IMG/VR virus record: IMGVR_UViG_3300031759_000004
Span: 62,001-126,000 of that record
Strand: one strand, 5' to 3'
Length of the DNA: 64,000 nt
DNA from: a virus
A model generated the notes under the pieces. The model had not been told where the DNA came from. It worked only from the letters and a program-made list of their open reading frames with translations, and searched no databases. Made by a program: the position numbers and the translations under genes. Positions 189 through 59,990 of this stretch are shown here, in pieces. Each line of letters opens with the position of its first letter. Positions within the stretch are counted from its first letter, which is position 1.

Positions 189-196
189 GTAGTTAG
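189..196 (+). promoter_or_regulatory. GTAGTTAG start-proximal motif
   Basis: GTAGTTAG begins 14 nt before the ATG of the gene at 203, and no purine-rich Shine-Dalgarno sequence is seen. It is one of about 23 copies of a motif placed just upstream of genes in this window. Confidence 0.55.
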
Positions 197-202
197 GCCA
201 CT

Positions 203-964
203 ATGGCAACCAGCAACGCTAGCGAGCCGCGAGTGACAGCGGCTCAAAGCCCCGACACGCTGCCTCTGCGCGGCTACGCCGTGGAGCAGCTGGCCAACTA
301 CATCATGCGTCAGCTTGGCGCGCCGACCTGGAACGTCGAGCTGACCAACCAGCAAATTTACGACTGCATCCAGGACTCCTTGGGTTTGATTTCTCAGTGG
401 GTCCCTTTGACGAAAGTTGGCACCCTCCCGCTCGTACGGGGCCAATTCAAATATCTACAAGGAGTGGACGTCGGCCTTGGCGTAGCTCGTATCGACTTTG
501 TCGAACCCAACCCAGTCCCCACTGAGATTTTTTATGGCAACCTGATCAACCCCGCGCCGCTGTTTCGGACCGGGTTGGACGAGTACGACACCTTTCTGCG
601 CTGGCGCAAAACCTGGCAGCGGGTCACGTCCATCAGGCCCGACTGGTTTTACGACGAAGTCGAAGAGGCCCTGTACATCCACAATCCGATTGAGCGCTAT
701 CAGGCGGGCGTGATCTGCTACTTCCCGCAGACGGACACCACCAAGCTGAACCTGACGGCGGCAGACTGGGTCAAGCGCATGTCACTGGCCAAGTCCCGTT
801 TGCTGCTGGGCGAAGTGTGGATGAAATTTTCTGGCGCAATTCCGGGGCCGATGCAGAACATCCAGCTGGACCAGACGAAGCGGGAGAAGGCCCAGGAAGA
901 AGTGGACCGGCTGATGGAGCAGCTCAAAGGCATGCAGCTGTCTACACCAGCCATGATCGACTGA
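203..964 (+). CDS. Putative virion structural (neck/connector-like) protein
   Basis: This encodes 253 residues and starts at ATG 203, just after a GTAGTTAG motif. The C-terminal third has a conserved-looking pattern: a tryptophan/lysine segment followed by small and basic residues, K-F-S-G, I-P-G-P, and a charged helix. I recall this arrangement from neck or head-tail connector proteins of large T4-like phages, but could not align it. There is no signal peptide, membrane segment or catalytic motif. It leads a cluster of three closely packed genes (203, 966, 1798) after a terminator, so they are probably cotranscribed. The gene call is secure; the structural role is inference. Confidence 0.8.
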   Translation: MATSNASEPRVTAAQSPDTLPLRGYAVEQLANYIMRQLGAPTWNVELTNQQIYDCIQDSLGLISQWVPLTKVGTLPLVRGQFKYLQGVDVGLGVARIDFVEPNPVPTEIFYGNLINPAPLFRTGLDEYDTFLRWRKTWQRVTSIRPDWFYDEVEEALYIHNPIERYQAGVICYFPQTDTTKLNLTAADWVKRMSLAKSRLLLGEVWMKFSGAIPGPMQNIQLDQTKREKAQEEVDRLMEQLKGMQLSTPAMID

Positions 965-965
965 C

Positions 966-1808
966 GTGAACAAGTACAATCCAAAAGGTCTGCGCCGCGA
1001 CCACCGGGGCCGCCTCCTGGACAAATGGGGCCGCACAATGGAAGTGGACTGGGACGAATTCGAGAAGCGCCGCCGGACACCCGGCAAGCCGCTGAAATAC
1101 CCGCAGGTAGTCAACCCGCTGCATGCGGCGGCCAAGCTCAAGTCGACCGTTGAGGCCGTAAACTTTGACGATCCGGATCAGCTGCTGACGCGTTTTACCA
1201 ACTTTGTCGTTTTCACTGAAGTGCAGAAGCGCAACCACCGCTTCCAGTCGTACATGCTGAAGTATTACTACACCGACAGGGTGTGCTCGTACGGTGAAGG
1301 GCACGAGGGACACTGGACAATTCACGAGCCGTGGGCTAAGCGTTTTCTAACGGTTAAGGCAGCTGAAGCTGCCATAATGGAAATCATCAAAGGTCAGCGC
1401 TACATGGACATTTTCTTGGCCTGGGACGACCCGCGCGGCTATCAAATAGCCGAAGTTTCGCCGAACGGCACTGACATTGTGCGCCGCGTGCCTCACCAGC
1501 TTCGGCATCCGCAGGCGCGCACGGCGGAGTCCATTGTAGACGCTCTCCTGGAGAGCAACCTGGAGGACCGGCTGATGGCCGTGGCCCGGAAGATCAAGCA
1601 CTGCGGCGACTACGGCTGCCTGTTTTACCACCCGGGACTGAAGACGGTCCACTGGACTGCCGCCGACTCTGATGGTTCTCCGGACTTTACTGACTTGGAC
1701 GAGATTAAAAAGATGCTGAAGCTGCCGGGTGTGGAGGAGGTTGTGATCGGCGACGAGTGGTCGCCAGGCAAGGAAAAAGGCTACCAGCGCTTGCGCTATG
1801 AAAGCTGA
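966..1808 (+). CDS. Hypothetical protein with internal capsid-targeting-like motif
   Basis: This encodes 280 residues from a GTG start 1 nt after the preceding stop; the first ATG is about 25 codons in. I do not recognise a family. The N-terminus is rich in arginine, lysine and aspartate. Around residues 188-197 there is an internal stretch ending in D-A-L-L-E, like the N-terminal L-L-E peptides of several other proteins here. The last 95 residues could be a separate small domain. The gene overlaps the next by 11 nt, suggesting coupled translation. Confidence 0.75.
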   Translation: MNKYNPKGLRRDHRGRLLDKWGRTMEVDWDEFEKRRRTPGKPLKYPQVVNPLHAAAKLKSTVEAVNFDDPDQLLTRFTNFVVFTEVQKRNHRFQSYMLKYYYTDRVCSYGEGHEGHWTIHEPWAKRFLTVKAAEAAIMEIIKGQRYMDIFLAWDDPRGYQIAEVSPNGTDIVRRVPHQLRHPQARTAESIVDALLESNLEDRLMAVARKIKHCGDYGCLFYHPGLKTVHWTAADSDGSPDFTDLDEIKKMLKLPGVEEVVIGDEWSPGKEKGYQRLRYES

Positions 1809-2484: not shown

Positions 2485-2571
2485 ATCGTCACTTGCGCCC
2501 GGACCGGAAACGTGGGAGAGTAGCGGGCCACTCTCGCGGACTGATTCCGTTCTTAGTTGGCATTGAAATTT

Positions 2572-3000: not shown

Positions 3001-3020
3001 GTCGCTGTAGACGACATACT

Positions 3021-3103: not shown

Positions 3104-3109
3104 TGTCGT

Positions 3110-5352: not shown

Positions 5353-5360
5353 TTAACTAC
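5353..5360 (-). promoter_or_regulatory. GTAGTTAA start-proximal motif
   Basis: On the minus strand GTAGTTAA begins 12 nt before the GTG start at 5348 of the GIY-YIG gene. It shows that the motif follows gene orientation. Confidence 0.55.
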
Positions 5361-5523: not shown

Positions 5524-5531
5524 GTAGTTAA
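5524..5531 (+). promoter_or_regulatory. GTAGTTAA start-proximal motif
   Basis: GTAGTTAA begins 11 nt before the GTG at 5535. This spacing favours GTG 5535 over ATG 5550 as the start. Confidence 0.5.
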
Positions 5532-6034: not shown

Positions 6035-6042
6035 GTTCTAGC
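6035..6042 (+). promoter_or_regulatory. GTTCTAGC start-proximal motif
   Basis: GTTCTAGC begins 12 nt before ATG 6047. The 12 nt GTTCTAGCGGGG matches, except for its last base, the sequence before the minus-strand start at 34013. Confidence 0.5.
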
Positions 6043-6790: not shown

Positions 6791-6798
6791 GTTCTACA
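6791..6798 (+). promoter_or_regulatory. GTTCTACA start-proximal motif
   Basis: GTTCTACA begins 12 nt before ATG 6803, the same position as GTTCTAGC before 6047. Confidence 0.4.
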
Positions 6799-7188: not shown

Positions 7189-7195
7189 GCCTTAA

Positions 7196-7561
7196 TTACG
7201 GCAGCGACTCGTCGACGTCGCGCGGGTCCAGCGCCAGGCGGCGCAATGGATTGGCCGGGCGGCCTGTGTTCGGAATCACTTCAACGGCCCTGTCATCCCA
7301 TAAATCTATCATGCGGTAATCCTTCTGGTTGGTGATCTCCAGCGCGGGCAGCCCGTTGTCGGTCAGCCACTGCCGGACGAAAGCCAGGTCCCCTGGATTG
7401 GCCGCCCTGGCGGTCATGATCTTCACTTCTTCGCCGTTGCGCAGCCACGCCTTGACCCGGGCCATCATCGCCGGTACCGGCGGCCCGATGTGCTCGGGGC
7501 CGTGGAAACCAGTGTCATGGGCCAGGGTGCCGTCCAAGTCTACTCCGTGCCAGCCAGCCAT
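7196..7561 (-). CDS. HAD-superfamily phosphohydrolase
   Basis: This encodes 121 residues from ATG 7561. HAD motif I is D-L-D-G-T-L at residues 8-13 (two catalytic Asp), and motif II is the Thr of M-T-A-R near residue 50. The later D-L-W-D-D-R segment supplies the acidic motif IV. This compact, capless form is typical of small phage HAD phosphatases acting on nucleotides or phosphosugars. It sits 3 nt after the methyltransferase gene 7565-8209 and belongs to a glycan/nucleotide modification cluster. The substrate cannot be read from sequence. Confidence 0.85.
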   Translation of the reverse strand: MAGWHGVDLDGTLAHDTGFHGPEHIGPPVPAMMARVKAWLRNGEEVKIMTARAANPGDLAFVRQWLTDNGLPALEITNQKDYRMIDLWDDRAVEVIPNTGRPANPLRRLALDPRDVDESLP

Positions 7562-7564: not shown

Positions 7565-8209
7565 TTAAATACAGTGAACGAGTTGCAACCGCTCCGGGTG
7601 AAAGAAAACCTCCACCAGCTTGAGCGTCCAAAAGCTGGGGAAGGGAAAGCTGAAGTCCGGCAGGCAGCCTTCCGACGTAAAGGTGATAGGTCGATAGTCG
7701 CCGGTCTTGATGTCTGCCGGGCAGCCCGGCCAGATGATCGGGTCGTCGTGGCAGAAGACCACCATTTTCGCCTTGCGGAGCACAGGCACAAGCTCGTTGA
7801 TGACTGCCCGGCTTAAATGGCAGATGACGTCTTTGACCAGGACCACCGCTTCGTCCACCGGCGGCGGAACGCCAGGCTCGCCTAGCTGAGGAAAAGTCTG
7901 GATGTAATGCCGTTGCAGGAGCGGCAGCAGGCGCGCTTTGGCCTTTTCCAGGGCTACCGGCGACACGTCGTAGGGCTGGTAGTAGCTGCGCGGCACGCCG
8001 CTGAGGATGGCCTCGGCCACGCGGCCATCGCCGCAGCCCCAGTCGATGACGCGAAAGTGCGGGTAGTTCTGGTTGGCGTGCAACAGCATCTGCACGAATT
8101 CAATGTACGGGCGGCAGTGCGCCGGGTCGGACCCGGGGCCGGAGCCGGAGGTGGAGTCCCAGGCTCGTTCCGTGTAGTGGACGTCGAAAATTTCGCTGAG
8201 GGGTTTCAT
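7565..8209 (-). CDS. Class I SAM-dependent methyltransferase
   Basis: This encodes 214 residues from ATG 8209, which overlaps the preceding stop as ATGA; the frame stays open upstream, but that overlap and the codon pattern favour 8209. SAM-binding motif I is V-I-D-W-G-C-G-D-G-R-V near residues 52-62, followed by an acidic loop D-V-S as motif II. Together with the adjacent FkbM-type methyltransferase and sugar transferases it probably modifies glycans or small molecules rather than DNA, since no DPPY or PC motif is seen. Substrate is unknown. Confidence 0.85.
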   Translation of the reverse strand: MKPLSEIFDVHYTERAWDSTSGSGPGSDPAHCRPYIEFVQMLLHANQNYPHFRVIDWGCGDGRVAEAILSGVPRSYYQPYDVSPVALEKAKARLLPLLQRHYIQTFPQLGEPGVPPPVDEAVVLVKDVICHLSRAVINELVPVLRKAKMVVFCHDDPIIWPGCPADIKTGDYRPITFTSEGCLPDFSFPFPSFWTLKLVEVFFHPERLQLVHCI

Positions 8210-15309: not shown

Positions 15310-16014
15310 ATGGCAACAACTACTGAGTACTCAACGGAGAAGGAATTGACGGACCTTTTAGAGTCCGTTTTGGCAAAACAAGAGCTGCTACTGAGCAGCC
15401 TTACCAACGAGGAAGTGGAGATCAAGGCGGTCTTTTACATCAAGACCGACGAAGAGGGCGAGACCAAGCCCAGCGCGGGCGCGCCGGTCAAGCTGCGCAA
15501 AATCAGTCCCGAGTTCAAGCTGTTCATGAAGGACAAGCCGGACTTCATCCTGATTTTCGATTATCACGCCTGGAAGCACGTGTCGCCTGAAAAACGGGAA
15601 CCCATGATCCATGAAACGCTGCGGCGCATCAGCGTGGAGCGCAACCAGGCGGGCGCGCTCAAGCTGCGGACGCTGCCGCACGCCATTCAGACCGACATCG
15701 CCACGGCCCAATGTTATGGGGCCTGGAATCCAGCTCTAGTGCAGATGAAAGACGCGCTGCGGCAGCGCTTGATGCCCTACGGCACGAGCGAGAACGACGA
15801 CCCGGAGGCGTACAACCACCTGGCCGGTAAGGTCAAAAAGCCGACCGAAGAACCGGCGGCGGAGACAAGCGAAACGGCGGAAGCCGAAGTCGCGGCGGCG
15901 GAAGCGGGCGAAGCGGCGGAAGCCGCCGAGGAAGCCGCGCCGGAAAAAGAGACGCTGCCCACCCGCACCAACCGCCGTCGGCGGCCTGCCGTGGGGCAGG
16001 AAGAGGCGGATTGA
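15310..16014 (+). CDS. PhageMetallopep-like protein lacking the full zinc motif
   Basis: This encodes 234 residues from ATG 15310, 7 nt after uvsX. Residues 75-140 follow the layout of the putative phage metallopeptidase family: an F-I-L-I-F-D strand, W-x-x-V-S-x-E-x-R, a helix at the HExxH position, then H-A-I and Y-G-A-W. The zinc helix reads H-E-T-L-R (101-105) instead of H-E-x-x-H, so the second ligand is missing and catalysis is doubtful. The C-terminal 70 residues are Ala/Glu-rich and end in basic residues. A non-catalytic binding role is inference. Confidence 0.7.
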   Translation: MATTTEYSTEKELTDLLESVLAKQELLLSSLTNEEVEIKAVFYIKTDEEGETKPSAGAPVKLRKISPEFKLFMKDKPDFILIFDYHAWKHVSPEKREPMIHETLRRISVERNQAGALKLRTLPHAIQTDIATAQCYGAWNPALVQMKDALRQRLMPYGTSENDDPEAYNHLAGKVKKPTEEPAAETSETAEAEVAAAEAGEAAEAAEEAAPEKETLPTRTNRRRRPAVGQEEAD

Positions 16015-16168: not shown

Positions 16169-16993
16169 ATGCCCACTGATCTGACTGCGGGATGGTACCG
16201 TCGGGTAAACGACGTACTACGGGAAGAACCCCAACTGAGCACAAGCTTGTGCAAAGAAACCGAAACCGTGCAAGACGGCAGCCCGAACGGCACCGACTAC
16301 TCCAAAACGGTTTGTGACCTCACCCGGGCGATCTATCGCTCCGGCAAAGACGTGCCCAAGCTGACCAAGCAGCAAATCATTGGCAGCGCCACCAGTGTGT
16401 TGATACTGGATACGCCGCTGCCGGTCGTCAGGGAACTGATGCAAAAGCCAGTTCCCGTGCGCAGCGCTGAACCCAAGAAAACAGCGCCCGCCAAACCCAA
16501 GCCGCCGGAAAAACCCGTCAGCCCTCGCCCAAAAGTAGAACCTTCTGAACCCAAGCCCGCCGCCAAAGTTGAACCCAAGCCGGTCGTCAAGGCGGAGGTC
16601 AAACCCGAACTCAAGCCGCTCAACCGCCCGGCGGAACCGGCTCCAGCCAAGCCCGCCCCGGCTAAACCGGTCCCGGCTAAGCCCGCACCGGCGGCAGCCG
16701 CCGTAGTCCGCGAAAGCGAGGACACGGACGTGGAGGCCAAACCTGCGCCCAAGACGGCGCTGTCCAAGCCCATCAAGTCAGGCACCAAGCCCAGCACTGA
16801 CGAAATCACCTACATCCGGGACAAGATACCTTACATTCCCGGGCTGACCATCATCAACAATCTGCACGCCATCATGCTCTTGATGGAACCGTACGTCCGG
16901 CGCGGGGACAAAGTGGCCGCCGATCTAAACGACGAATTTGCCACCTTGATCGACAAAGTTTACGTCCTCGTTACCCTACCTTCCGGTGGCTAA
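16169..16993 (+). CDS. Hypothetical protein with proline-rich linker
   Basis: This encodes 274 residues from ATG 16169. Residues 1-95 are a helical domain with no family I recognise. Residues 100-205 are a low-complexity linker of K-P, E-P and A-P-A-K-P repeats, which would be stiff and extended. Residues 220-274 are a small helical domain. Two folded ends joined by a long linker suggest a tether or scaffold. It overlaps the sigma-like gene by 8 nt, so it is probably made together with the transcription factors. Confidence 0.75.
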   Translation: MPTDLTAGWYRRVNDVLREEPQLSTSLCKETETVQDGSPNGTDYSKTVCDLTRAIYRSGKDVPKLTKQQIIGSATSVLILDTPLPVVRELMQKPVPVRSAEPKKTAPAKPKPPEKPVSPRPKVEPSEPKPAAKVEPKPVVKAEVKPELKPLNRPAEPAPAKPAPAKPVPAKPAPAAAAVVRESEDTDVEAKPAPKTALSKPIKSGTKPSTDEITYIRDKIPYIPGLTIINNLHAIMLLMEPYVRRGDKVAADLNDEFATLIDKVYVLVTLPSGG

Positions 16994-17990
16994 GAAAGCA
17001 TCCAATCCCGTCGACGGCGAGCACATCTTTCCGGCGAGCAAATTAACGCCTTTGGCGGTCCAGTGGAAGCAGTTGAATGCCACGGGCCGTCACAAAGAGG
17101 CCATGCTCGTCCTGGAAGAGATCGTCATCGGTTCCACGGCCATGTTTCAACGCCTGGCCCAATTTGAAGACTTCCACTACACGGTGGACCTCCCGATCCT
17201 GGTCAGCGCGGCCCAGGAGAAGGTGATCAAGTGGCTGGCCAAATGGCAGCCCAAGAAAGGCAAGCTTTTCTCCTGGTTCAGCAAGTGCGCCAAGAACGCG
17301 TTCAAATCCGAGCTGGTCAAGGTCAACCAGTACCGCAAGCGCTATCATGTCACCAGCGAGCACCTGGAGAAGTTTTACGGCGTCGAAGACCACGAAGTCA
17401 ACAAGCACGACCTGTCCCTGGAAGTGCGCAAGCGGATCACCGACATCATCTGTCGCTGGTCCGACCCGCAGATCATCGGCGCGCTGCGCTTCTCCCTGGA
17501 GTGCATCGTCGAGGACGAGCACGACCGCCAGGCGGTGGTGCGCTCGGCGGCTTACGCCTACTGTCTCAGCCTGGAATTCAGCAAGTACCTGTACGAGTGG
17601 TGTACGGTGGCCTTGCGCACGGCGTTTTACGACAAAGCCTATATTCCGTACACGGAGTACGAGCTGCTGATGGCGGCGGAGAGCTTCACCTTTCTTCCCG
17701 ACCTGTTCAACATCATCGGCATCGAAAAGGGCAAGGAAGTGCTGGCCATTTTTGGCGGCCACCGGATCAAATTTCCAACCTTGCAGGCCGTGGCCCTGCT
17801 GGTTGAGAAACAAAAAATAGCCCGCGACATCGAGCGCAGCGATCAGGACCCCGATGCCGTCGTGGAGGTGGCGCGCAAATATAAACGGACCCAGCGCGCC
17901 GCCGAACAGATATTCAACGAAATGTTAGAAATAAGAGACCCCCGACGTTATGGCGAATATGGCGTTTTCGACGAAGATTCCGGACAGTGA
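16986..17990 (+). CDS. Sigma-factor-like protein (T4 gp55 type)
   Basis: This encodes 334 residues from GTG 16986, overlapping the previous gene by 8 nt. Residues 80-120 resemble sigma region 2: a helix followed by F-S-W-F-S-K-C-A-K-N-A-F-K-S-E-L-V-K and a basic stretch, the -10-binding and core-binding part. T4 gp55 is an equally divergent sigma of 185 residues that reads late promoters with only a -10 element. The remainder is helical with no clear region 4, so -35 recognition seems unlikely. It is a candidate reader of the start-proximal motif seen across this window; that link is inference. Confidence 0.65.
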   Translation: MAKKASNPVDGEHIFPASKLTPLAVQWKQLNATGRHKEAMLVLEEIVIGSTAMFQRLAQFEDFHYTVDLPILVSAAQEKVIKWLAKWQPKKGKLFSWFSKCAKNAFKSELVKVNQYRKRYHVTSEHLEKFYGVEDHEVNKHDLSLEVRKRITDIICRWSDPQIIGALRFSLECIVEDEHDRQAVVRSAAYAYCLSLEFSKYLYEWCTVALRTAFYDKAYIPYTEYELLMAAESFTFLPDLFNIIGIEKGKEVLAIFGGHRIKFPTLQAVALLVEKQKIARDIERSDQDPDAVVEVARKYKRTQRAAEQIFNEMLEIRDPRRYGEYGVFDEDSGQ

Positions 17991-19467
17991 TTGCTGGCAG
18001 GTAAAACTGACCCGGCACCACGTCTGTCGCGGCCCGCTCTGGGCCGACCCCAAGCTGCGACCACCCATCTTGGAAGAGATGATGGAAGACCTGGAGCGCG
18101 TGATCGCCTCCGTGGCCTGGCAGTACCGGGATGTGACCACCCCGTTCATGCACTACGACGAATTGATCGGCGAGGGCCGGTTGAAGCTCGCGGAGCTGAT
18201 CAGCAAGGGCGAGCTGGACCGCCAGGTCAGCCGCTACGACTTCTTCCGCTTCTTCACGGCCTGCGTGAGCAACATGGCCCGCAGCCGTCTACAGAAGTAC
18301 CGGTTCACGGAAAAGCGCACCGGCCAGAAGCCGCCGCCCCGGGACCAGCGTTTCGCCCCGGCACCAGGGGCTAAGCCCTTGAGTGTAGACGACGACAACG
18401 AGCATGAAGAGGAGGCCCCCGCTTACCACAAAAACGTCGAGCTGAGCCTGGACGATCCGGAGCTGAACGTCCAGGTGGCCAACGGCAGCGACCATGACCA
18501 GCAGGAAGCCCGCGAGGTCGAGGCGGAGTATGAGTCGCTGTTGACGGAGACGGAAATCCTGGTGTTCCGGCAGCTCCACCGGCCCAACGCCAAAGCCTGC
18601 TGCCTGGCCCAGCTGGACGCCTGGCGTAAACGGGAGGACCAGGGCTTCAACATCAAGCTCAAGAACGAGCATCTGGCCGAGGGGTTGGGCATGGATGTCA
18701 AGGACTTCGCCAAATACGTTCTAACAGTCAGGCAGAAAATCACCGCCTACCGCAACATGAGCAACGAACAACTAGATGAACAAAGCCGCCGGAACGTCCT
18801 GATCGCCACCTTGAGCCAGCTGTTTGGCATCCAGATTCCCGCCAATCTGCACGACGACATGGTGGTCCGGCGATTGTTTACGATGGCGGCGCGCAATCAA
18901 TTTGACGAGAAGGTCAAGGGCAAGCCCGAGGTGGAGGAGATGCTGATCGAGATCGGGGCCAAGCCGCCCCGGATGATCGGCAACATCATGTCCTGCTACG
19001 GCATCCTGTACTCCCGCAACTGCCGCAAATGCAACATGTGCGACATGCGGGACAGCTGCCGGATCGAAGCGGCCAACCTGGGCCTGACCACTATGGCCAT
19101 CAGCCCGCGCCTGCTGGGCCGCAACCAGGAGCGCATCCCGGCCTGCCTGCCGCACCCGGCGGACAAGGAGTTCCGGGTTTCCAGCAGCGACGAGCAGGAA
19201 ATCATCGCCTACCTGGATGACAGCTTTTCCCGCCGTGTGGAAGACGAAACCATTGTCTACTACGGCGAGGACTCGTCCAACAACCGGCACCGGGTCCTGT
19301 TCACGGTAGACAACACCAGCCCCATGCGCCTGCGGTTCAGCGCGCCCAGCGACAAGCTCAAGACCCGGCTGGTCAGCAAGCAGAAGGCGTGGCAGCCCCG
19401 GGATTGCGCCTCGCTCGCGGAAATCTTCGCCCTGATCGAACAACACGCCAAAGAGGCGCTCAGCTAA
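17950..19467 (+). CDS. Second sigma-like protein with a four-cysteine cluster
   Basis: This encodes 505 residues from ATG 17950 (or 17959), overlapping the previous gene by 41 nt. Residues 45-120 look like sigma region 2 (Y-D-E-L-I-G-E-G-R-L-K-L, then F-F-R-F-F-T-A-C-V-S-N-M-A-R-S-R-L-Q-K). An acidic linker follows. Cysteines at 358, 361, 364 and 370 (C-x2-C-x2-C-x5-C) could bind zinc or an Fe-S cluster. The last 80 residues form a separate alpha/beta domain. Two adjacent sigma-like genes suggest a late or middle transcription switch. Sigma assignment is by motif shape, not alignment. Confidence 0.6.
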   Translation: MANMAFSTKIPDSDCWQVKLTRHHVCRGPLWADPKLRPPILEEMMEDLERVIASVAWQYRDVTTPFMHYDELIGEGRLKLAELISKGELDRQVSRYDFFRFFTACVSNMARSRLQKYRFTEKRTGQKPPPRDQRFAPAPGAKPLSVDDDNEHEEEAPAYHKNVELSLDDPELNVQVANGSDHDQQEAREVEAEYESLLTETEILVFRQLHRPNAKACCLAQLDAWRKREDQGFNIKLKNEHLAEGLGMDVKDFAKYVLTVRQKITAYRNMSNEQLDEQSRRNVLIATLSQLFGIQIPANLHDDMVVRRLFTMAARNQFDEKVKGKPEVEEMLIEIGAKPPRMIGNIMSCYGILYSRNCRKCNMCDMRDSCRIEAANLGLTTMAISPRLLGRNQERIPACLPHPADKEFRVSSSDEQEIIAYLDDSFSRRVEDETIVYYGEDSSNNRHRVLFTVDNTSPMRLRFSAPSDKLKTRLVSKQKAWQPRDCASLAEIFALIEQHAKEALS

Positions 19468-20321: not shown

Positions 20322-21247
20322 AATCTTTCATCGGCATCCTCACCTTCCGGCGGCTGGCGGCGCTCCAGGCCATGATGGCCGGAATTGAAGAGCACTGCTC
20401 CCAGTACCAGTGCGCCATCGCTGAAGACTGCGGCCAGCGGGACAGCACGTCGAGCTTCCTGAAAGCGGGCCGCACGACAGAGTACGCCTACCGGCGCGAT
20501 CTCATGGCCACGGAATACGTAGACAGCGGCGACCCGGCGGCGGTCTATCCCAACGCCCGGGTGCTCCTGGGCGAACGCAACCTGGGGGTGGCAGGCAACA
20601 GCAACCGGCTGATCAAAATGTTCATGGACTCGGGCTGCGACCACCTGTGCCTGTGTAACGACGACCTGCTGGTCACCGGTGATTTCGTCCGCGCGTACGC
20701 CCAGGCGCACGATGACCTGGGCGTGGGCCTGTTCTGTTTCTGCGACTTCGACAAGGCCAGCCCGGCCATCTCCGGCAACCCGGAGAGCTACAAGTGGGTC
20801 ACGTACCCCTGGCGCGGGTACAAGGTCAAGATGCTGCCGCGCATGACCGGAATCATGATGTCCATGACCCGGGCGGTGATTGAAAAGATCGGTTACTTCG
20901 ACACTGAGTTTGGGAAATTCGGCGAGGAGCACTGCGACTTCAACATCCGGGCGCGCCTGGCTGGTTTCATCCAGATGGAAAAGCAGGACATGAACTGCCT
21001 GGACATCGAACATGGTCTGCTCCAGCACCAGGATGTCCCCACCAGCTTTGCCGGGGTTCCGCGCAAGCAGGCCGACCTGGTTGCCTCCCAGGCCATGAAC
21101 CGGGCCACGCGTGAGTATAGCTACCGTCACTACTACCGTCCGTTCAAGCTGATCTATCCCCCGTGGTCGGGCGGCTACATGAACGCAGGCAGCTCCACCC
21201 GTCAACTTGAGCAGGTCGGTTATCGGATTCTCACTGACCTGGTGTAG
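20318..21247 (+). CDS. GT2-family glycosyltransferase
   Basis: This encodes 309 residues from ATG 20318. It has the GT2 layout: N-terminal I-G-I-L-T-F-R-R-L, G-E-R-N-L-G-V-A-G-N-S-N-R near 88-100, L-C-L-C-N-D-D as the DxD-type metal site near 112-118, and G-K-F-G-E-E-H-C-D-F as the catalytic-base region near 205. It has no membrane segment, so it should act in the cytoplasm. It stands alone between HU-like and head genes, unlike the clustered transferases at 9-12 kb and 60-64 kb. Its stop lies inside the GTAGTTAG motif of the next gene. Confidence 0.85.
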   Translation: MKSFIGILTFRRLAALQAMMAGIEEHCSQYQCAIAEDCGQRDSTSSFLKAGRTTEYAYRRDLMATEYVDSGDPAAVYPNARVLLGERNLGVAGNSNRLIKMFMDSGCDHLCLCNDDLLVTGDFVRAYAQAHDDLGVGLFCFCDFDKASPAISGNPESYKWVTYPWRGYKVKMLPRMTGIMMSMTRAVIEKIGYFDTEFGKFGEEHCDFNIRARLAGFIQMEKQDMNCLDIEHGLLQHQDVPTSFAGVPRKQADLVASQAMNRATREYSYRHYYRPFKLIYPPWSGGYMNAGSSTRQLEQVGYRILTDLV

Positions 21248-21251
21248 TTAG
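21244..21251 (+). promoter_or_regulatory. GTAGTTAG start-proximal motif
   Basis: GTAGTTAG begins 15 nt before ATG 21259, and its first TAG is the stop of the glycosyltransferase. It is the candidate promoter for the head-protein cluster 21259-24196. Confidence 0.6.
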
Positions 21252-28350: not shown

Positions 28351-28366
28351 TTTGTTCTTCCAGGCT

Positions 28367-30759: not shown

Positions 30760-30813
30760 TCGGCGTGTAACCGGACTTGCTGGAATTAACCGGTGGGACT
30801 GGGAAAGGAAAAC

Positions 30814-34017: not shown

Positions 34018-34025
34018 GCTAGAAC
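34018..34025 (-). promoter_or_regulatory. GTTCTAGC start-proximal motif
   Basis: On the minus strand GTTCTAGC begins 12 nt before ATG 34013. The plus-strand GTAGTTAG for the divergent gene at 34049 lies only 12 nt away. Confidence 0.5.
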
Positions 34026-34036: not shown

Positions 34037-34044
34037 GTAGTTAG
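34037..34044 (+). promoter_or_regulatory. GTAGTTAG start-proximal motif
   Basis: GTAGTTAG begins 12 nt before GTG 34049. It decides the start, since a TTG 18 nt upstream also opens the frame. Confidence 0.55.
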
Positions 34045-34606: not shown

Positions 34607-35206
34607 ATGCGTGCCGATCAGCTAGTGACGAAGCTCCTGGACCTGCCCACCCTGGGCCAGCTCCGGGAGTCGCCCCAGTATTACCCAGGTCCCTTCGCCT
34701 ACCAGCGAGATTCCGGCTTCCGGCCCCTGTCGATGGACAACTACTGGGCCTGCCAGCTGATGACCCAGGATGCCGACTACGCCTACGCCCTTTCCCCGGC
34801 GGGCAACTTCGGCTACGTGTTTTCCGTGCCTGACACCGAGAACCCGCCAAGGACCGGCATCGTTCCGGTCATGACGGTTCAGCTGCGCCCGTCCAACATC
34901 AAGGGCTACATGCAGGCGCACCGGCTGAGCATCCGGGAGAGCTTCGCCCGGGGCGGCGTGGCGACGCGCTGGTATTTCAGCTACGTCCAGTATGCGGGCG
35001 GGGTGGTCTCCGATTTTGAGCACCTGGAAGGCGGCAAGCGCCTCTGGAAGTCGTTCGTGCGCACGGCGACGGATCACGGGCTGAAGATTTCCCTGGTGGA
35101 CAGCCGCACCGGCGAATGGCTTCCGGTAAGCCCGCAGTCGCCGGACGAGGCCATCTGGTCCCTGGACAAGACACTGTACCCGGTCGTGCTGGTGCTGGAG
35201 CGCTAG
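34607..35206 (+). CDS. Hypothetical protein, early-type promoter
   Basis: This encodes 199 residues from ATG 34607. It begins M-R-A-D-Q-L-V-T-K-L-L-D, similar to the targeting-like peptides but with Asp for Glu, then becomes an alpha/beta domain rich in Tyr, Phe and Arg. No catalytic motif was recognised. The consensus promoter suggests host-polymerase expression early in infection. The stop lies within CTAGTTAG, the motif for the next gene. Confidence 0.72.
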   Translation: MRADQLVTKLLDLPTLGQLRESPQYYPGPFAYQRDSGFRPLSMDNYWACQLMTQDADYAYALSPAGNFGYVFSVPDTENPPRTGIVPVMTVQLRPSNIKGYMQAHRLSIRESFARGGVATRWYFSYVQYAGGVVSDFEHLEGGKRLWKSFVRTATDHGLKISLVDSRTGEWLPVSPQSPDEAIWSLDKTLYPVVLVLER

Positions 35207-35210
35207 TTAG
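35203..35210 (+). promoter_or_regulatory. CTAGTTAG start-proximal motif
   Basis: CTAGTTAG begins 10 nt before ATG 35213, and its first TAG is the stop of the preceding gene. Confidence 0.5.
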
Positions 35211-35212: not shown

Positions 35213-35470
35213 ATGGCCGAATTCACACCCTGGGCGCTGGCGCAGCCGCGAAACCCGCCGCCCATCAGCAAGGTCACGGTATACGCCCGCGACCCTTACA
35301 ACTTCAGCTGGCGCACGCCGGACGGCACCATCATTCCCGCCGTAGGGCCAAACGCTGCCGGGGCGACGAATCCCACGTCGGTGCCGACGATTCAGTCGGT
35401 GGAGATCATTCCGGCCCCTGGGGTGCCTGACTACGGGGTCAACGGGCCAGGCCAGGAGCAGGCGATGTAG
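35213..35470 (+). CDS. Small Pro-rich hypothetical protein
   Basis: This encodes 85 residues from ATG 35213. It is rich in Pro, Ala, Thr and Val, with a short beta-type core (S-K-V-T-V-Y-A-R-D-P-Y-N-F-S-W) and no helices of note. The first part could be a small structural domain and the rest is disordered. Its stop lies in the GTAGTTAA motif of the next gene. Function is unknown. Confidence 0.62.
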   Translation: MAEFTPWALAQPRNPPPISKVTVYARDPYNFSWRTPDGTIIPAVGPNAAGATNPTSVPTIQSVEIIPAPGVPDYGVNGPGQEQAM

Positions 35471-35474
35471 TTAA
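35467..35474 (+). promoter_or_regulatory. GTAGTTAA start-proximal motif
   Basis: GTAGTTAA begins 14 nt before ATG 35481, with TAG as the upstream stop. Confidence 0.55.
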
Positions 35475-36918: not shown

Positions 36919-36926
36919 GTAGTTAG
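36919..36926 (+). promoter_or_regulatory. GTAGTTAG start-proximal motif
   Basis: GTAGTTAG begins 21 nt before ATG 36940, farther than usual. Confidence 0.5.
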
Positions 36927-42788: not shown

Positions 42789-42796
42789 CTTAGAAC
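42789..42796 (-). promoter_or_regulatory. GTTCTAAG start-proximal motif
   Basis: On the minus strand GTTCTAAG begins 13 nt before ATG 42783. The plus-strand motif for the divergent gene at 42816 is 8 nt away. Confidence 0.45.
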
Positions 42797-42804: not shown

Positions 42805-42812
42805 GTACTTAG
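42805..42812 (+). promoter_or_regulatory. GTACTTAG start-proximal motif
   Basis: GTACTTAG begins 11 nt before GTG 42816. Confidence 0.45.
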
Positions 42813-43610: not shown

Positions 43611-45208
43611 CCATGCCCAGCGTGACCATCAGCCTGCCGCTCAGCCTGTGCGAGCGCCTGTCCTTCGACAAGCTCTTCCGGATTTCCGATCCGAAGCGGG
43701 TGTACCGCAGCTTCACCGTGCGCGGGCCGCCGCTGGAGATCGACAGCTACCAGGACACGGTTTACTACAGCTTCAATTTCAAGTCCAACCCCAGCACCAC
43801 GGGTCTGCGGCATCGCGGCTACATCAAGTTTTTCAAGCCGACGCGCAAGAACCCCAAGGACGTGCCCTTGCAGCACCTGGAGTGCGTGGTGGACTGCATG
43901 TGCCCGGACTTCCGCTACCGGTGGGCCTGGGCCAACAAGCAGCGCGGGTCCAGCGTGGTGGGTCCCAATTCGCTCAACCAGGCGTGGAACAAAGCACCCC
44001 GGATCACCAACCCTTCCGGTCGCCCGGGCCTGTGCAAGCACCTGCTGGCCGCCCGCCAGTACATCTACGGCCTGTTGTCGTCTTTTCCCGGGGATGAACC
44101 GGATACGGCGGAAAAGCTGAACCGCTTGACCAAGATCGCCACCAAGCGCTGGACCGATTTTGAGGGGGCCATGGCGGCGGCGCGCGAACGGGAGAAAGTC
44201 TACAAGGACCGCAAGCAGGCGCGCAACCTGGGCCTGATCCTGCCGCAGCCCGTCACCCCGGTGCGCCCGCCGGAGCCAACGTCTACAAAGGCCCCGCCCA
44301 AGCCCGGAGCGCCCAAGCCCGGCGAACCCAAGCCCAAGCCAGGCGCACCCCAACCGGCCAAGCCCGGGGCCGCCCAGCCGCCCACGGCTCCGCCGCCGGG
44401 AGCGCCGAAGAAACCGGCGCAGGGCGCGCGTCAAATGATCCAGCCCGAGCCGTTGCCGAAGCCGCTTCCAGCCAAGCCCGCTGTGAAAAAGCCCGCAACG
44501 GCTGCGCCGAAAACGTCTACAAACAAGGCCAAGCCGCGCCGGGTGCTGGGCAACCGGATCGTCAAGGGTATGATTCCCTCGCAGCAGTTTCCAGGCACCT
44601 GGGAGTCTGACGGGAGTAGCGTAGTTAGAGCAACAGGTCAACATGACAATATGAGCGCACTGAACGAAGCAAAATCACTGGTACAGGAATTGTACGATGA
44701 AGAATTGGCGGCCACCCAAGGTGCGCCATCAGGCGATGAATTTTCCCAACCCGACGGCGGGATGGACGAACTCGGCGCGCCGGATGAACCCATGGAACCG
44801 GCAGTAAGCGACGCCGCCGTGGGTGCGGACACCGAGGGCGAAACCGCCCTGGGCCTGTTGCGCCAGATGCGCGACTTGCTCGCCGACCTCACCGCCAACG
44901 TCACGGGCCAGGAGATTCCTGGTGCCGAGGGCGGCATGGACGGCATGGACGGCGGCATGGGCGCTGAAGGCGGCATGGGCGCTGAAGGTGAGTTGGGGGC
45001 TGAAGGTGAGCTGGGCGCTGAAGGCGGGATGGAAATGCCCGGCGAGCCGCCCGGTGATCTGCCGCCCGAGGGCGAGGCCGGAGGCGAAGGTGAAGCCAAC
45101 GAATTTGAACCGGAAGAGGAAGCGCCCGAGGAACCCAAAGGCGAGGAAGAGCCTGGTGAAAGCCGTCCGGAACCCAAGAAAAAGAAGGACAAGAAGGAAG
45201 AGGAGTAA
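43607..45208 (+). CDS. SWIM zinc-finger protein fused to an acidic core-type protein
   Basis: This encodes 533 residues from ATG 43607. Residues 1-150 hold a SWIM zinc finger, C97-x-C99 and C143-x-H145, within D-C-M-C-P-D-F and G-L-C-K-H-L. Residues 220-330 are a Pro/Lys/Ala linker. Residues 335-348 are translated from DNA that looks like an intergenic region (GTAGTTAG and A-rich leader). From Met 349 an acidic Gly/Glu-rich domain follows, ending in a lysine-rich tail. SWIM fingers bind DNA or protein; similar proteins occur in large phage virions. The fusion looks recent. Confidence 0.8.
   Translation: MTMPSVTISLPLSLCERLSFDKLFRISDPKRVYRSFTVRGPPLEIDSYQDTVYYSFNFKSNPSTTGLRHRGYIKFFKPTRKNPKDVPLQHLECVVDCMCPDFRYRWAWANKQRGSSVVGPNSLNQAWNKAPRITNPSGRPGLCKHLLAARQYIYGLLSSFPGDEPDTAEKLNRLTKIATKRWTDFEGAMAAAREREKVYKDRKQARNLGLILPQPVTPVRPPEPTSTKAPPKPGAPKPGEPKPKPGAPQPAKPGAAQPPTAPPPGAPKKPAQGARQMIQPEPLPKPLPAKPAVKKPATAAPKTSTNKAKPRRVLGNRIVKGMIPSQQFPGTWESDGSSVVRATGQHDNMSALNEAKSLVQELYDEELAATQGAPSGDEFSQPDGGMDELGAPDEPMEPAVSDAAVGADTEGETALGLLRQMRDLLADLTANVTGQEIPGAEGGMDGMDGGMGAEGGMGAEGELGAEGELGAEGGMEMPGEPPGDLPPEGEAGGEGEANEFEPEEEAPEEPKGEEEPGESRPEPKKKKDKKEEE
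44621..44628 (+). promoter_or_regulatory. GTAGTTAG motif inside an open frame
   Basis: A full GTAGTTAG lies 30 nt before the in-frame ATG 44651. Here it is read through as V-V-R because of frame. Confidence 0.5.
44651..45208 (+). CDS. Possible internally started acidic prohead core-type protein
   Basis: In frame within the SWIM-finger gene, ATG 44651 (codon 349) would give 185 residues. It opens with a helix ending L-V-Q-E-L-Y-D-E, resembling the start of T4 Alt (L-F-D-E) and the targeting-like peptides here. The rest has G-A-E-G repeats and runs of Glu, then a Lys-rich end, like acidic prohead core proteins. GTAGTTAG upstream supports a separate start. Use of this start is inference. Confidence 0.5.
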   Translation: MSALNEAKSLVQELYDEELAATQGAPSGDEFSQPDGGMDELGAPDEPMEPAVSDAAVGADTEGETALGLLRQMRDLLADLTANVTGQEIPGAEGGMDGMDGGMGAEGGMGAEGELGAEGELGAEGGMEMPGEPPGDLPPEGEAGGEGEANEFEPEEEAPEEPKGEEEPGESRPEPKKKKDKKEEE

Positions 45209-47405: not shown

Positions 47406-47413
47406 GTATTTAG
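47406..47413 (+). promoter_or_regulatory. GTATTTAG start-proximal motif
   Basis: GTATTTAG begins 14 nt before ATG 47420. Confidence 0.5.
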
Positions 47414-47419: not shown

Positions 47420-47974
47420 ATGAAATACACGGAGCGAAAAGAGTGGCTCTACGATGGCGAGATTTTCAGGCTCAGGCCGGACGTCACCACGGCGCTGAAA
47501 ATCCACGCGGAGTACATCGCCAAGCACGCGCCCATCCCCGGGCCGCTGTTCCTGGAAGTGGATCGCCGGTCGACCAAGTATGACGACCTGTGGCACATGC
47601 CGCTGGACGAGCGCACCGTGTTCTCCCGGGAGCTGAAGGTGCCTGCGCTGGTGACCAAGGAGCGCCCCGACTGGCGGCTCACCAAGGTGGGCCTGACGCC
47701 CATGCAGAAGCACAAAATCTGGCTGGCCAATCTGCACCTACAGGAGTTTGACTGGTTTCCGGCCCAGGGCGACATGATGTTTTTCGACGGCTACCGGCAC
47801 ATGATCCAGAAGGTGGTACTGGAGCCGCAGGCATTCTGGCAGCAGACCAACGTCTGGCTGGGCCTGATCTGCGAAACGGTCATCCCGGCGGAAGGCGATG
47901 CCAAGCCGCTGCTCGATCCCTCGGTGCCCGTGCCACAGGAACGTATACAAACGAGGCCGCTGCCGGAACTATGA
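47420..47974 (+). CDS. Virion structural protein (neck/tail-completion-like)
   Basis: This encodes 184 residues from ATG 47420. The segment W-F-P-A-Q-G-D-M-M-F-F-D-G-Y-R-H-M-I followed by K-V-V-L-E-P and W-Q-Q-T-N-V-W-L-G-L is a beta-barrel pattern I associate with uncharacterised neck or tail-completion proteins of large myophages. There is no catalytic motif. It overlaps the next gene by 4 nt and starts the run 47420-48585. The precise role is uncertain. Confidence 0.7.
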   Translation: MKYTERKEWLYDGEIFRLRPDVTTALKIHAEYIAKHAPIPGPLFLEVDRRSTKYDDLWHMPLDERTVFSRELKVPALVTKERPDWRLTKVGLTPMQKHKIWLANLHLQEFDWFPAQGDMMFFDGYRHMIQKVVLEPQAFWQQTNVWLGLICETVIPAEGDAKPLLDPSVPVPQERIQTRPLPEL

Positions 47975-48324
47975 GCATCGGCAGCCTCATGGAACAGGCG
48001 CTCCAGCAGCACATGGCCGAGCGCACGCGGGACCCGGAAATCCGGCAGCGCATCGTGCTGGCCGTGATGACCGCGTTTGCCGGACTGCGCAAAAAGCCGG
48101 TGCCTGACCTGGCGCTGCGCGTCCAGAAGATGCAGGAACAGGTGCAACGCCTGGCGGAGGAGGTATCCGTCGAGTTTCAGCACGGGAACCTCGTAGTTAA
48201 GCCAGCAGGTTCCGCTGAGTCGCTGATCCGCCAGTTTCGACTTGGGTCGGACTGGTTTGACCCGGAGCCTGACATTGACCATATAATCGTGGCCGCCGCG
48301 CTGGCAGGCCCAAAGCGTAGTTAA
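47971..48324 (+). CDS. Hypothetical helical protein
   Basis: This encodes 117 residues from ATG 47971, overlapping the previous stop. Two helices with coiled-coil character (L-R-V-Q-K-M-Q-E-Q-V-Q-R-L-A-E-E) make up residues 1-75, followed by an aromatic/acidic segment. It contains a chance in-frame GTAGTTAA at 48193. The last codons form the upstream part of the motif for the next gene. Function is unknown. Confidence 0.65.
   Translation: MSIGSLMEQALQQHMAERTRDPEIRQRIVLAVMTAFAGLRKKPVPDLALRVQKMQEQVQRLAEEVSVEFQHGNLVVKPAGSAESLIRQFRLGSDWFDPEPDIDHIIVAAALAGPKRS
48317..48324 (+). promoter_or_regulatory. GTAGTTAA start-proximal motif
   Basis: GTAGTTAA begins 11 nt before ATG 48328, and its TAA is the stop of the preceding gene. 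Confidence 0.55.
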
Positions 48325-48670: not shown

Positions 48671-48678
48671 GTATTTAG
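48671..48678 (+). promoter_or_regulatory. GTATTTAG start-proximal motif
   Basis: GTATTTAG begins 11 nt before GTG 48682, directly after a terminator. No other promoter space is left, so this copy is strong support for promoter activity. Confidence 0.6.
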
Positions 48679-49741: not shown

Positions 49742-49749
49742 GTAGTTAA
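49742..49749 (+). promoter_or_regulatory. GTAGTTAA start-proximal motif
   Basis: GTAGTTAA begins 12 nt before the 20-codon frame at 49754. Confidence 0.5.
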
Positions 49750-49753: not shown

Positions 49754-49813
49754 ATGAACAACGGAACAGCCAAAGAAACCCAGGGAGGTGCCCAGAGGCA
49801 CCCCCGTAGTTAA
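49754..49813 (+). CDS. Possible 19-residue micro-ORF upstream of the sheath gene
   Basis: ATG 49754 opens a 20-codon frame (19 residues, basic and polar) ending at TAA 49811-49813, which is part of the next GTAGTTAA. A 6-bp GGTGCC/GGCACC hairpin lies inside it. It could be a leader peptide tuning sheath expression, or an accident between two motif copies. Confidence 0.3.
   Translation: MNNGTAKETQGGAQRHPRS
49806..49813 (+). promoter_or_regulatory. GTAGTTAA start-proximal motif
   Basis: GTAGTTAA begins 22 nt before ATG 49828 of the tail sheath gene. It is the second copy within 64 nt. Confidence 0.5.
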
Positions 49814-53688: not shown

Positions 53689-54015
53689 ATGAACAAACTT
53701 ATCCAGAAAATTATCGGCGAGGCCGACATCGAGGCCACCACGCAACACAGCGCAGTACCCGGAGAACTGGATGGCGCTATGACCCAAATTCGTGAGCGCT
53801 TTGTTGAGGAACGAGTTCATGGCTTCAAGGACCCGACAACAGGCCAAGCTGTTGGTCCCGTGAGCCGTGAACAGGCGGAAGCGGCCTGGCAACGCATTGA
53901 GCCTCAGCTCAGGCGGTTATTTAGGCAGGCGGAACCCGGCAGTGAAACGAGCCGGATGTTGGGCTTGCACCAGAGCCGGGACGTGTACAACTACCGGAAT
54001 CCCAACGCACAGTAG
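53689..54015 (+). CDS. Small protein with capsid-targeting-like peptide
   Basis: This encodes 108 residues from ATG 53689, 2 nt after the preceding gene. Residues 1-11 (M-N-K-L-I-Q-K-I-I-G-E) are nearly the same as the starts of the head-cluster proteins at 21693, 21905 and 22916, although the gene lies among tail genes. The rest is helical and polar. If the peptide is cut after Glu11, the mature product would be 97 residues. A head-internal protein is inferred. Confidence 0.72.
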   Translation: MNKLIQKIIGEADIEATTQHSAVPGELDGAMTQIRERFVEERVHGFKDPTTGQAVGPVSREQAEAAWQRIEPQLRRLFRQAEPGSETSRMLGLHQSRDVYNYRNPNAQ

Positions 54016-54019
54016 TTAG
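54012..54019 (+). promoter_or_regulatory. GTAGTTAG start-proximal motif
   Basis: GTAGTTAG begins 11 nt before ATG 54023, with its TAG as the preceding stop. Confidence 0.55.
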
Positions 54020-56960: not shown

Positions 56961-56968
56961 CTAAGAAC
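56961..56968 (-). promoter_or_regulatory. GTTCTTAG start-proximal motif
   Basis: On the minus strand GTTCTTAG begins 14 nt before ATG 56954. Confidence 0.45.
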
Positions 56969-57953: not shown

Positions 57954-57960
57954 GCTCAAG

Positions 57961-57968
57961 GTAGTTAC
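57961..57968 (+). promoter_or_regulatory. GTAGTTAC start-proximal motif
   Basis: GTAGTTAC begins 12 nt before ATG 57973. An ATG at 57952 would put it inside the gene, so the motif favours 57973. Confidence 0.5.
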
Positions 57969-57972
57969 TCAA

Positions 57973-58842
57973 ATGTCGCGTGACGCTGATAATAAGAACC
58001 TGGTTAACCTTTGGGGACGGCAGACGGACGCCAACACGTCCAGCGTGCTGGAACCGCAGCGCTCGGACTTGTTCCTGGTGGACCTGACCCTGGCGGCGGG
58101 CGGCATCCAGAGCGCCGCCAACGTCAAGCTCAACGCGCAGCTGCGCCAGTTTGTGCGCAGCGTCAGCCTGCCTGAAGTCAGGCTCAAGGCGGAAGTGTTC
58201 CGCCGGGACTCGGTGCCGTACAACATGCCCAACTGGGACGACCCGGTGGAAGCCGCTAAAATCACCTTTGTGGTGGACACCTGGGAGGGCACCGACCGCA
58301 GTGACACGGCGGACCTGCTGGACGCCTGGGTGGCGCTGACGCGGGCGGGGCGCGGGGCACGCTACGGCGGGTTTGCGGGCCTCAGTCCCCAGGGATATTT
58401 CACCCTGGACAGCAATTTTAGCACGACTTGCCGGTTCGACATCAACGTCAGCTTGCTGCGCGGCAACATGCAGAATATCGTCCAGGGGCTGAGCGGCACG
58501 ACGACCACCGGCCAGGTAAACGGTGCCCAGCTCGCTGCGGTGGCCAAGTACAACAGCCTGCTGAAGCAGCAGGCGGCCAGGCAGTCGAACCAGGGCGCGG
58601 CCACCAGCACGCCCGCTGGTCCGCAGGGCGCACCGTCCGCCACGGCGGCAGCCACCCTGCCTCAGATGGAGGAACACACCAAGTGGGTGCTGCGGCAGTG
58701 CTGGTGCGCCGGGTACAAGCTGTCGGACCTGAATTACACCGAATCCCAGCTGCTGACCCTGGAAGCCACGTTTTACCCGGAAGCGGTGGAACGGTACACG
58801 TCCACCCTCAACTTTAACGGCGCACCGACGATACCCTCATGA
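57973..58842 (+). CDS. Tail-tube-like baseplate protein (gp54/gp48 class)
   Basis: This encodes 289 residues from ATG 57973. L-E-P-Q-R-S-D-L-F-L-V-D-L near 22-34 matches the tube protein at 52129. S-V-S-L-P-E-V-R, an I-T-F-V-V-D-T-W strand and T-L-E-A-T-F-Y-P-E near the C-terminus fit the tube fold. A Gln/Ala/Thr-rich insert lies near 185-230. Baseplate tube initiators of myophages (T4 gp48, gp54) resemble tube proteins this way. It overlaps the next gene by 4 nt. Confidence 0.75.
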   Translation: MSRDADNKNLVNLWGRQTDANTSSVLEPQRSDLFLVDLTLAAGGIQSAANVKLNAQLRQFVRSVSLPEVRLKAEVFRRDSVPYNMPNWDDPVEAAKITFVVDTWEGTDRSDTADLLDAWVALTRAGRGARYGGFAGLSPQGYFTLDSNFSTTCRFDINVSLLRGNMQNIVQGLSGTTTTGQVNGAQLAAVAKYNSLLKQQAARQSNQGAATSTPAGPQGAPSATAAATLPQMEEHTKWVLRQCWCAGYKLSDLNYTESQLLTLEATFYPEAVERYTSTLNFNGAPTIPS

Positions 58843-59978
58843 GCAACCTTTCGCAGTCGGTCATCAACCTGGTCACCCAGTTTCGACCGCCGTTTTCCCG
58901 GTCAGCCACCCTGCTGTACGCGTACACCGCCGAGGGCAGCGTCAACCTGGGCATCACCGTGCAGCTGGCGGCGGGAGAGAGCGCCATCGCTCCGGCCACG
59001 GGGACGGTCAGCCGGATATGGACGTCGCTCCCGGAGTTTTACACGGAAGACCCGGTGCTGCTGGCCACGTACGCCACCAACGTCACCATTGACTGCGGCC
59101 TGGGCGTGCTGGTGACGCTTAGTGGCCTGGCTTCCACCGGGCTGGTCACGGGGCAGCCCGTTACGCGCGGGGCGCTGGTTGGACCGCCGAAAACCAGCCA
59201 AATCTGGATGGGAGTGCTCGTCGGCACCGTCCCGTTGGACCCTCTGCGGCTAAATCCAACCTTTTTGGTGCAAGATGGGGCCGAGGTCCTGGGCCAGTAC
59301 GACATGATCCGGTTCGCTCCTGACGTCCTGCCGCGCGATCTGAGTGGTGGCACGGCAGCCACCCTGGTCGGCGGGAAGCGCTATTTTACGCCGGACGCGA
59401 CGCAGCTGCTGGTCAATGTCGATTTTAACGGCACGGGTCTCAAGCAGGGTCCGGCTCAGGTCGGCAAAACCGCCAGCGACTACTGGAATGTCTACACTCC
59501 CGCCAGTTATACGGCAACGGTGGACCATACCTGCGGCTACGGATACGGGTATGGTTGGGTGTTTTCCAGTGCTCCGCTGATTCCGCTGCTGAATTACGAC
59601 CGCAGCCTGAGCGTCGTTTATTTGGAACGGGTTGCGCCGCTGACATCGGCGGCAGGCACCCAGAGCACTTTTGATCCCATGTTGAACACGTACGCAGGCG
59701 GTCCGTCCGTGCCCAACACGTTCAACCTGCGCAACATCCCGCCCGGCAGCTACACCCTGTACGTCTATTCGGCAGCCGCCTCGGGCACCAGCAGCGTCTA
59801 CATTGGAGTTAATGGCGGTGCTCCTGTCTTGCACACGGTCAACAACACGGCAGCTACGTCTTTTGTAGCCGGTCAGAACTACGTGGCCGTTTCGGCGGCG
59901 GTCAACAGCACGGGAAAAATGAGCTTTGCGGTCTATGGGTACCTGTCGGGACTGCAACTACTCCGAACCGGCAGCTGA
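58839..59978 (+). CDS. Structural protein with degenerate M23-peptidase-like domain
   Basis: This encodes 379 residues from ATG 58839. Residues 30-130 follow the M23/LytM beta layout: G-I-T-V-Q-L, A-I-A-P-A-T-G-T-V-S-R-I-W, V-T-I-D-C-G-L-G-V-L-V-T-L-S-G-L, G-Q-P-V-T-R-G-A-L-V-G. The zinc ligands expected there (H and D, then HxH) are absent, so it should not cleave cell wall. Residues 190-379 are beta-rich with G-Y-G-Y-G-Y-G and Ser/Thr, perhaps a carbohydrate-binding or fibre domain. Role in the tail is inferred. Confidence 0.65.
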   Translation: MSNLSQSVINLVTQFRPPFSRSATLLYAYTAEGSVNLGITVQLAAGESAIAPATGTVSRIWTSLPEFYTEDPVLLATYATNVTIDCGLGVLVTLSGLASTGLVTGQPVTRGALVGPPKTSQIWMGVLVGTVPLDPLRLNPTFLVQDGAEVLGQYDMIRFAPDVLPRDLSGGTAATLVGGKRYFTPDATQLLVNVDFNGTGLKQGPAQVGKTASDYWNVYTPASYTATVDHTCGYGYGYGWVFSSAPLIPLLNYDRSLSVVYLERVAPLTSAAGTQSTFDPMLNTYAGGPSVPNTFNLRNIPPGSYTLYVYSAAASGTSSVYIGVNGGAPVLHTVNNTAATSFVAGQNYVAVSAAVNSTGKMSFAVYGYLSGLQLLRTGS

Positions 59979-59982
59979 TTCA

Positions 59983-59990
59983 GTTCTAAA
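59983..59990 (+). promoter_or_regulatory. GTTCTAAA start-proximal motif
   Basis: GTTCTAAA begins 13 nt before ATG 59996. Confidence 0.4.

Follow-up and report, generated by a model that had tools for sequence, protein, structure and literature searches.

Two classes of short upstream motif as candidate -10-only promoters in a clade of uncultured T4-related phages

What marks the starts of genes in a phage genome in which Shine-Dalgarno (SD) sequences are nearly absent? The question is raised by a 64,000-nucleotide stretch of viral DNA (the window), bases 62001–126000 of the 129,045-base IMG/VR record IMGVR_UViG_3300031759_000004 (here G000), which encodes the T4-type virion proteins tail sheath, head maturation protease and major head protein. 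A preliminary description of the window had noted a recurrent motif, GT(A/T)NTTA(G/A) or GTTCTA, shortly before start codons on both strands, and had read it as a lone -10 promoter element giving leaderless late mRNAs. We found that a short motif before genes is real and is common to a clade of uncultured T4-related phages. Our favoured explanation, to which we give a probability of roughly 0.8, is that these myoviruses use two classes of compact promoter, each made of a -10 element only, which yield leaderless or near-leaderless mRNAs.

A motif enriched before start codons

Related IMG/VR contigs were found using the sheath and capsid proteins and nine were taken (G001–G009, 64–238 kb), giving ten genomes which together hold 1.47 Mb and 1888 genes. 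Genes were called with our own codon-usage caller, which is blind to upstream motifs. It should be noted that counts over the ten genomes are not fully independent, because G001 and G002 look closely related; the motif excess is also present in single-genome counts for G000, G004 and G008. A megablast search found no match among cultured phages.

GTAGTTA occurs 14 times in the window, counting both strands, compared to 1.37 copies expected from 100 dinucleotide shuffles (standard deviation 1.13, maximum 5), and these copies almost always lie 11–16 nt before a start codon. The sites of the preliminary description hold with small corrections, such as that at 35203, which was listed as GTAGTTA and reads CTAGTTA. 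The whole record contains 20 copies vs 4 of the reversed control. In the 35 nt preceding each of 151 G000 genes, called independently, we found GTAGTTA 14 times (0.13 expected), GTTCTA 11 times (0.22 expected), GTTCTT 10 times (0.44 expected) and the SD sequence AGGAGG in 0 of the 151; SD sequences are nearly absent from the clade, with some SD-like sequence in G008. Taken as two classes, class A being GTAnTTA and class B GTTCT(A/T), often with AwTCn before it, the G000 upstream regions hold 21 class A motifs vs 0.8 in dinucleotide shuffles and 15 class B motifs vs 0.3.

Across the ten genomes 161 of the 305 copies of TAGTTA lie at most 25 nt upstream of a called start, vs 18 of the 743 copies of the reversed hexamer, so the equal frequency within genes that the preliminary description had named as the contrary outcome was not found. 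An EM (expectation-maximisation) motif search of 1881 upstream regions ended at gTAnTTAa from all five seeds, AGGAGG included. TAGTTA or GTAGTT, together with GTTCTT or GTTCTA, were among the top enriched upstream hexamers in nearly all of the genomes, the exceptions being G005 (class B) and G009 (GTAGTT). Neither motif was found in Maribacter phage Molly_1, which alone showed a weak relationship to the sigma candidate described below, or in Listeria phage LIS04, which uses SD sequences instead. Among the papers listed by a literature search, none had GTAGTTA as a phage promoter.

TTTAAC/TTTAAT and GTATACA are also weakly enriched in the G000 upstream regions and may mark other promoters.

Two classes, their genes and the predicted transcription start

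The single merged motif of the preliminary description separates into two classes, which are conserved gene by gene. Two or more members could be classed in 59 ortholog groups, of which 33 were pure A, 24 pure B and only 2 mixed, whereas shuffling gave an expectation of 41.9 mixed groups (minimum 32). Reciprocal best hits of less than 55% identity gave 94 A-A, 72 B-B and 4 A-B pairs. Annotated class A groups comprise baseplate wedge, head-tail adaptor, sheath and tail fibre, plus a peptidase gene; annotated class B groups comprise DNA polymerase (B in 7 of 8), DnaB helicase, another helicase, SbcC, SbcD, endonuclease VII, GroES and a glycosyltransferase. Virion genes make up 4 of 4 groups in A vs 1 of 9 in B (Fisher P = 0.007), a comparison of few groups with the peptidase left out. 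The label "late" probably suits class A and its virion genes; it does not suit the GTTCTA copies, because only class A goes with virion genes. At 73673–73690 of G006 a class A and a class B site overlap within a 16-bp divergent gap (CATCAGTAGTTAGAACGTTATG).

The spacing to the start codon is sharp. Measured from the G of the motif, the distance for TAGTTA (n = 161) is exactly 11 in 70 cases, 10 in 2 and 6–7 in 3, with a tail to 16; the modal distance for class B is 12. A pyrimidine-purine (YR) step stands at G+10/G+11 of class A in 102 of 105 sites at spacing 11, 12 of 19 at spacing 12, 23 of 27 at spacing 13 and 25 of 33 at spacing 14, dropping to 8 of 21 at spacings 15–17. At spacings of 13 or more the step is present at +10/+11 in 56 of 81 sites (P = 9e−17) vs 19 of 81 for the next step. 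It is also present where GTAGTTA has no start codon within 40 nt (intergenic 14/19, in-gene sense 21/29; controls: antisense GTAGTTA 5/13, reversed motif in genes 15/93), although some of these orphan sites precede a start codon which the gene caller did not pick. For GTAnTTA sites of the window the figure is 17 of 21 (P = 1e−7).

As the YR step of class A is phased to the G and not to the start codon, transcription is predicted to start at G+11. At spacing 11, the commonest, G+11 is the first base of the start codon, and GTG starts are found there in 31 of 62 TAGTTA genes vs 13% of genes without strict motifs. We propose that class A, found mainly at virion genes and probably late, initiates at the purine 11 nt after its G, so that the mRNA would be leaderless where this purine is the first base of ATG or GTG and would otherwise usually carry a leader of 1–5 nt. 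The start on the start codon put forward in the preliminary description would accordingly apply at the commonest spacing, with leaders of 1–5 nt predicted for about half of class A sites. Class B, found mainly at replication and recombination genes and probably earlier, lies 12–15 nt ahead of the start codon, and its mRNAs too are probably near-leaderless.

Candidate readers and competing explanations

The product of 16986, which had been described as sigma-like, resembles gp55, with weak scores. phrog_234, the T4 late sigma family, had a single match in each of 4 genomes out of 6, and every time this was the orthologue of 16986 (E ~ 1e−4). Nearly all of the top 50 Foldseek matches to a model of the product (mean pLDDT 63) were sigma factors or RNA polymerase complexes (best E 0.038), with no fold neighbour below E 0.001. 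The product also matches phrog_836 (E 8e−6) and contains a region resembling the Mor family and late activators. We could not confirm the second proposed sigma-like protein, the product of 17950, which had no PDB sequence match and whose fold matches were weak and mixed. RNA polymerase beta' (PF04998) was found in none of 6 records and in 14 of 14 control genomes, with the limit that the records may be incomplete and phage polymerases diverged, and the single-subunit polymerase family PF00940 gave no match here or in the controls. We infer that class A is read by host RNA polymerase together with the product of 16986. The gene at 15310–16014 (+), between the recombinase gene and the sigma candidate, had been considered as a sliding clamp from its size; it instead matches the putative phage metallopeptidase family PF18894.

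T4 late promoters consist of an 8-bp box that precedes the start by roughly one turn, with no -35 element (PMC2988020). Class A has in common with T4 late, gp55-read promoters a lone -10-type element without a -35 element, virion genes and use of both strands (PMC2988020), together with a gp55-family protein and contractile-tailed T4-type structural genes. Nothing is conserved across the 40 nt that precede class A motifs, in line with the earlier reading of a lone -10-type promoter. Unlike T4, the consensus is gTAnTTA where T4's is TATAAATA, and TATAAATA is not among the enriched k-mers here; the predicted box lies at -11 to -4, about 2 nt nearer the start than the T4 spacing of about -13 to -6 assumed in the preliminary description; the predicted start is on or beside the start codon; there is a second class for replication genes; and the sigma candidate is longer than gp55, with a Mor-like C-terminal stretch. 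The sliding-clamp link of T4 was not found, the PF02916 search giving no match in 6 genomes and no control genome over the cut-off either. By analogy, the system appears to work like a T4 late promoter with another consensus.

Other known systems share parts of this arrangement. In Actinobacteria and Deinococcus-Thermus, leaderless genes carry a TANNNT box some 12 bp ahead of the start codon (PMC3160421), likewise a -10-like box at a fixed short distance without SD; their consensus is different, and here the setting is a phage clade whose two classes divide by the function of the gene. Lack of a leader is reported to be frequent among phage mRNAs (PMC5312081). At phiKZ late promoters the G of TATG is the start site, and AR9 leaders measure 26–491 nt (PMC5312081). 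The late promoters of phiKZ and AR9 are also short, phage-specific elements (PMC5312081), but they are read by phage multisubunit RNA polymerases, of which no beta' was found here.

Several observations weigh against the promoter explanation or narrow it. Around 80% of called genes have no strict motif of either class, and the share is 84% where the same-strand upstream space exceeds 100 nt; therefore other promoters or miscalled starts must exist. The start for class B is less certain because its pyrimidine tracks the start codon (spacings 12 and 13), and 65% of genes without the motif likewise have a pyrimidine ahead of their start codon. The RGGCR positions that follow the motif could belong to a longer recognition site instead of marking a start. 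The baseplate hub gene, the sole virion exception in B, is class B in 4 of 7 genomes, and the sigma assignment of the 16986 product is based on weak scores.

The sharp spacing to start codons and the near absence of SD would also be expected of a translation-initiation signal replacing SD. Such an element of the mRNA would pair with rRNA or be recognised by a ribosomal protein, always at the same distance from the start codon, and Bacteroidota and other groups do initiate without SD (PMC9723704, PMC3160421). We consider a signal of this kind very unlikely, as the YR step is phased to the motif and is present without a start codon, the two classes sort by gene and function, and the motif is found at 33% of divergent genes vs 4% of genes overlapping a same-strand upstream gene. 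Divergent gaps of 31–60 bp carry a motif on each side, back to back, in 20 of 39 cases, so that a whole promoter would have to fit there unless transcripts start inside the opposing gene. The latter would be needed if a nuclease cut longer transcripts at the motif to leave short leaders; such processing would be expected to give constant 5' ends downstream of the motif too, but a YR signature is typical of initiation and the classes sort by function, leaving this explanation still more improbable. Some copies do overlap the previous stop codon, as would be the case if the motif simply arose where the TAG or TAA stop of one gene runs into the start of the next. This is refuted by the enrichment at divergent genes and by the excess which persists without a same-strand stop within 40 nt, both in G000 (A 10 vs 0.6, B 8 vs 0.2) and over the ten genomes (118 motifs vs 7.4 shuffled). 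A promoter is favoured over a translation signal because of the YR phasing, the start codon which is almost never less than 11 nt away and the divergent pairs.

Within the promoter explanation, class A could be read by the host housekeeping sigma and not by a phage sigma, which we think unlikely. If the host is a bacteroidote, the flavobacterial sigma-A -7 box TAnnTTTG, spanning -12 to -5, is similar in position (within 1 nt relative to the start) and shape, with a TA plus TT core (PMC9723704), and one capsid relative lies in a metagenome-assembled genome (MAG) called Flavobacteriales. However, the consensus differs, TAnnTTTG is not enriched here (upstream-to-body ratio 2.1 vs 1.9 for the reversed control) and a gp55-like protein is encoded. 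The TATAAT box was not enriched either. In F. psychrophilum, leaderless messages make up only 5.5% of the mRNAs with mapped starts (PMC9723704). The capsid relative, 77% identical to the window's protein, is encoded on a 3.8-kb contig of an "uncultured Flavobacteriales" MAG; naming a host from it was dropped as too weak.

A bolder proposal is that this T4-related clade rebuilt its whole transcription programme on two phage-specific -10-only promoters giving leaderless mRNAs, one element setting both the transcription and the translation start, with the products of the adjacent genes 16986 and 17950 as specificity factors for class A and class B. We regard this as possible but doubtful.

Sites and neighbouring genes in the window

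The sites are listed in Table 1. That at 21244 stands upstream of a gene run leading to the head protease and major capsid genes. The motifs at 36919, 44621 and 49806 were confirmed; they have no start codon within 19 nt, and leaders of at least 10 nt are predicted. For 44621 a start codon 30 nt downstream opens 185 codons, and plausible ATG distances are 21–30 nt.

Table 1. Class A and class B motifs and candidate sigma-like genes in the window (distances in nt from the G, or first base, of the motif to the start codon).
Feature	Position	Strand	Remarks
Class A GTAGTTA	189..195	+	ATG +14, head-tail adaptor gene 203–964; YR at +10/+11
Class A GTAGTTA	5354..5360	-	GTG +12; YR at +10/+11
Class A GTAGTTA	5524..5530	+	GTG +11; predicted leaderless
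Class A GTAATTA	7193..7199	-	ATG +11; newly listed
Class A GTATTTA	7566..7572	-	ATG +11; A in 4/6 orthologues; newly listed
Class A GTAGTTA	21244..21250	+	ATG +15; A in 5/5 orthologues
Class A GTAGTTA	34037..34043	+	GTG +12; back to back with class B 34025; no YR at +10/+11
Class A variant CTAGTTA	35203..35209	+	ATG +10
Class A GTAGTTA	35467..35473	+	ATG +14
Class A GTAGTTA	36919..36925	+	ATG +21, leader of ~10 nt predicted; YR at +10/+11
Class A GTACTTA	42805..42811	+	GTG +11; back to back with class B 42796
Class A GTAGTTA	44621..44627	+	Inside called ORF 43607–45208; YR at +10/+11
Class A GTATTTA	47406..47412	+	ATG +14; A in 6/9 orthologues, one more mixed
Class A GTAGTTA, orphan	48193..48199	+	Inside gene 47971–48324; YR at +10/+11
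Class A GTAGTTA	48317..48323	+	ATG +11; A in 6/9 orthologues
Class A GTATTTA	48671..48677	+	GTG +11; A in 5/9 orthologues
Class A GTAGTTA	49742..49748	+	ATG +12, short ORF; YR at +10/+11
Class A GTAGTTA	49806..49812	+	ATG +22, tail sheath gene 49828–52122; YR at +10/+11
Class A GTAGTTA	54012..54018	+	ATG +11; A in 4/8 orthologues
Class A GTAGTTA	57961..57967	+	ATG +12; A in 5/6 orthologues; YR one base early
Class B GTTCTA	6035..6040	+	ATG +12
Class B GTTCTA	6791..6796	+	ATG +12
Class B GTTCTT	28354..28359	+	GTG +13; B in 3/5 orthologues; newly listed
Class B GTTCTA	34020..34025	-	ATG +12
Class B GTTCTA	42791..42796	-	ATG +13, SbcC-like recombination gene 40837–42783
Class B GTTCTT	56963..56968	-	ATG +14, baseplate hub gene (exception in class B)
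Class B GTTCTA	59983..59988	+	ATG +13
gp55-like sigma candidate, Mor-like C-terminal stretch	16986..17990	+	phrog_234, Foldseek, phrog_836
Conserved neighbour, proposed second sigma-like protein, unconfirmed	17950..19467	+	Conserved in 8 genomes

The class B site at 59983 precedes a long open reading frame (ORF), 59996–62101, which has no PHROG match and whose N-terminus is similar to that of another long ORF at 125523–128213 of G000. The gene at 32855–33784 (+) encodes a PurZ-like adenylosuccinate synthetase (phrog_1211, E 1.5e−44; PF00709), whose product has GSEGKG at what we take to be the GDEGKG of PurA, and a diaminopurine genome is possible on the basis of this gene. The 684-aa protein encoded at 30793–32847 (+) has a weak match to HATPase_c_3 (HSP90/gyrase-type ATPase).

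These sites would provide a base-level map of promoters in phages that are known here from metagenomes alone, and would represent a late system of the T4 type whose promoter word differs and whose leaders are close to zero. Gene timing may be predictable from sequence across the clade, by class A vs class B, and the predicted mRNAs raise the question of how host ribosomes initiate on many leaderless phage messages.

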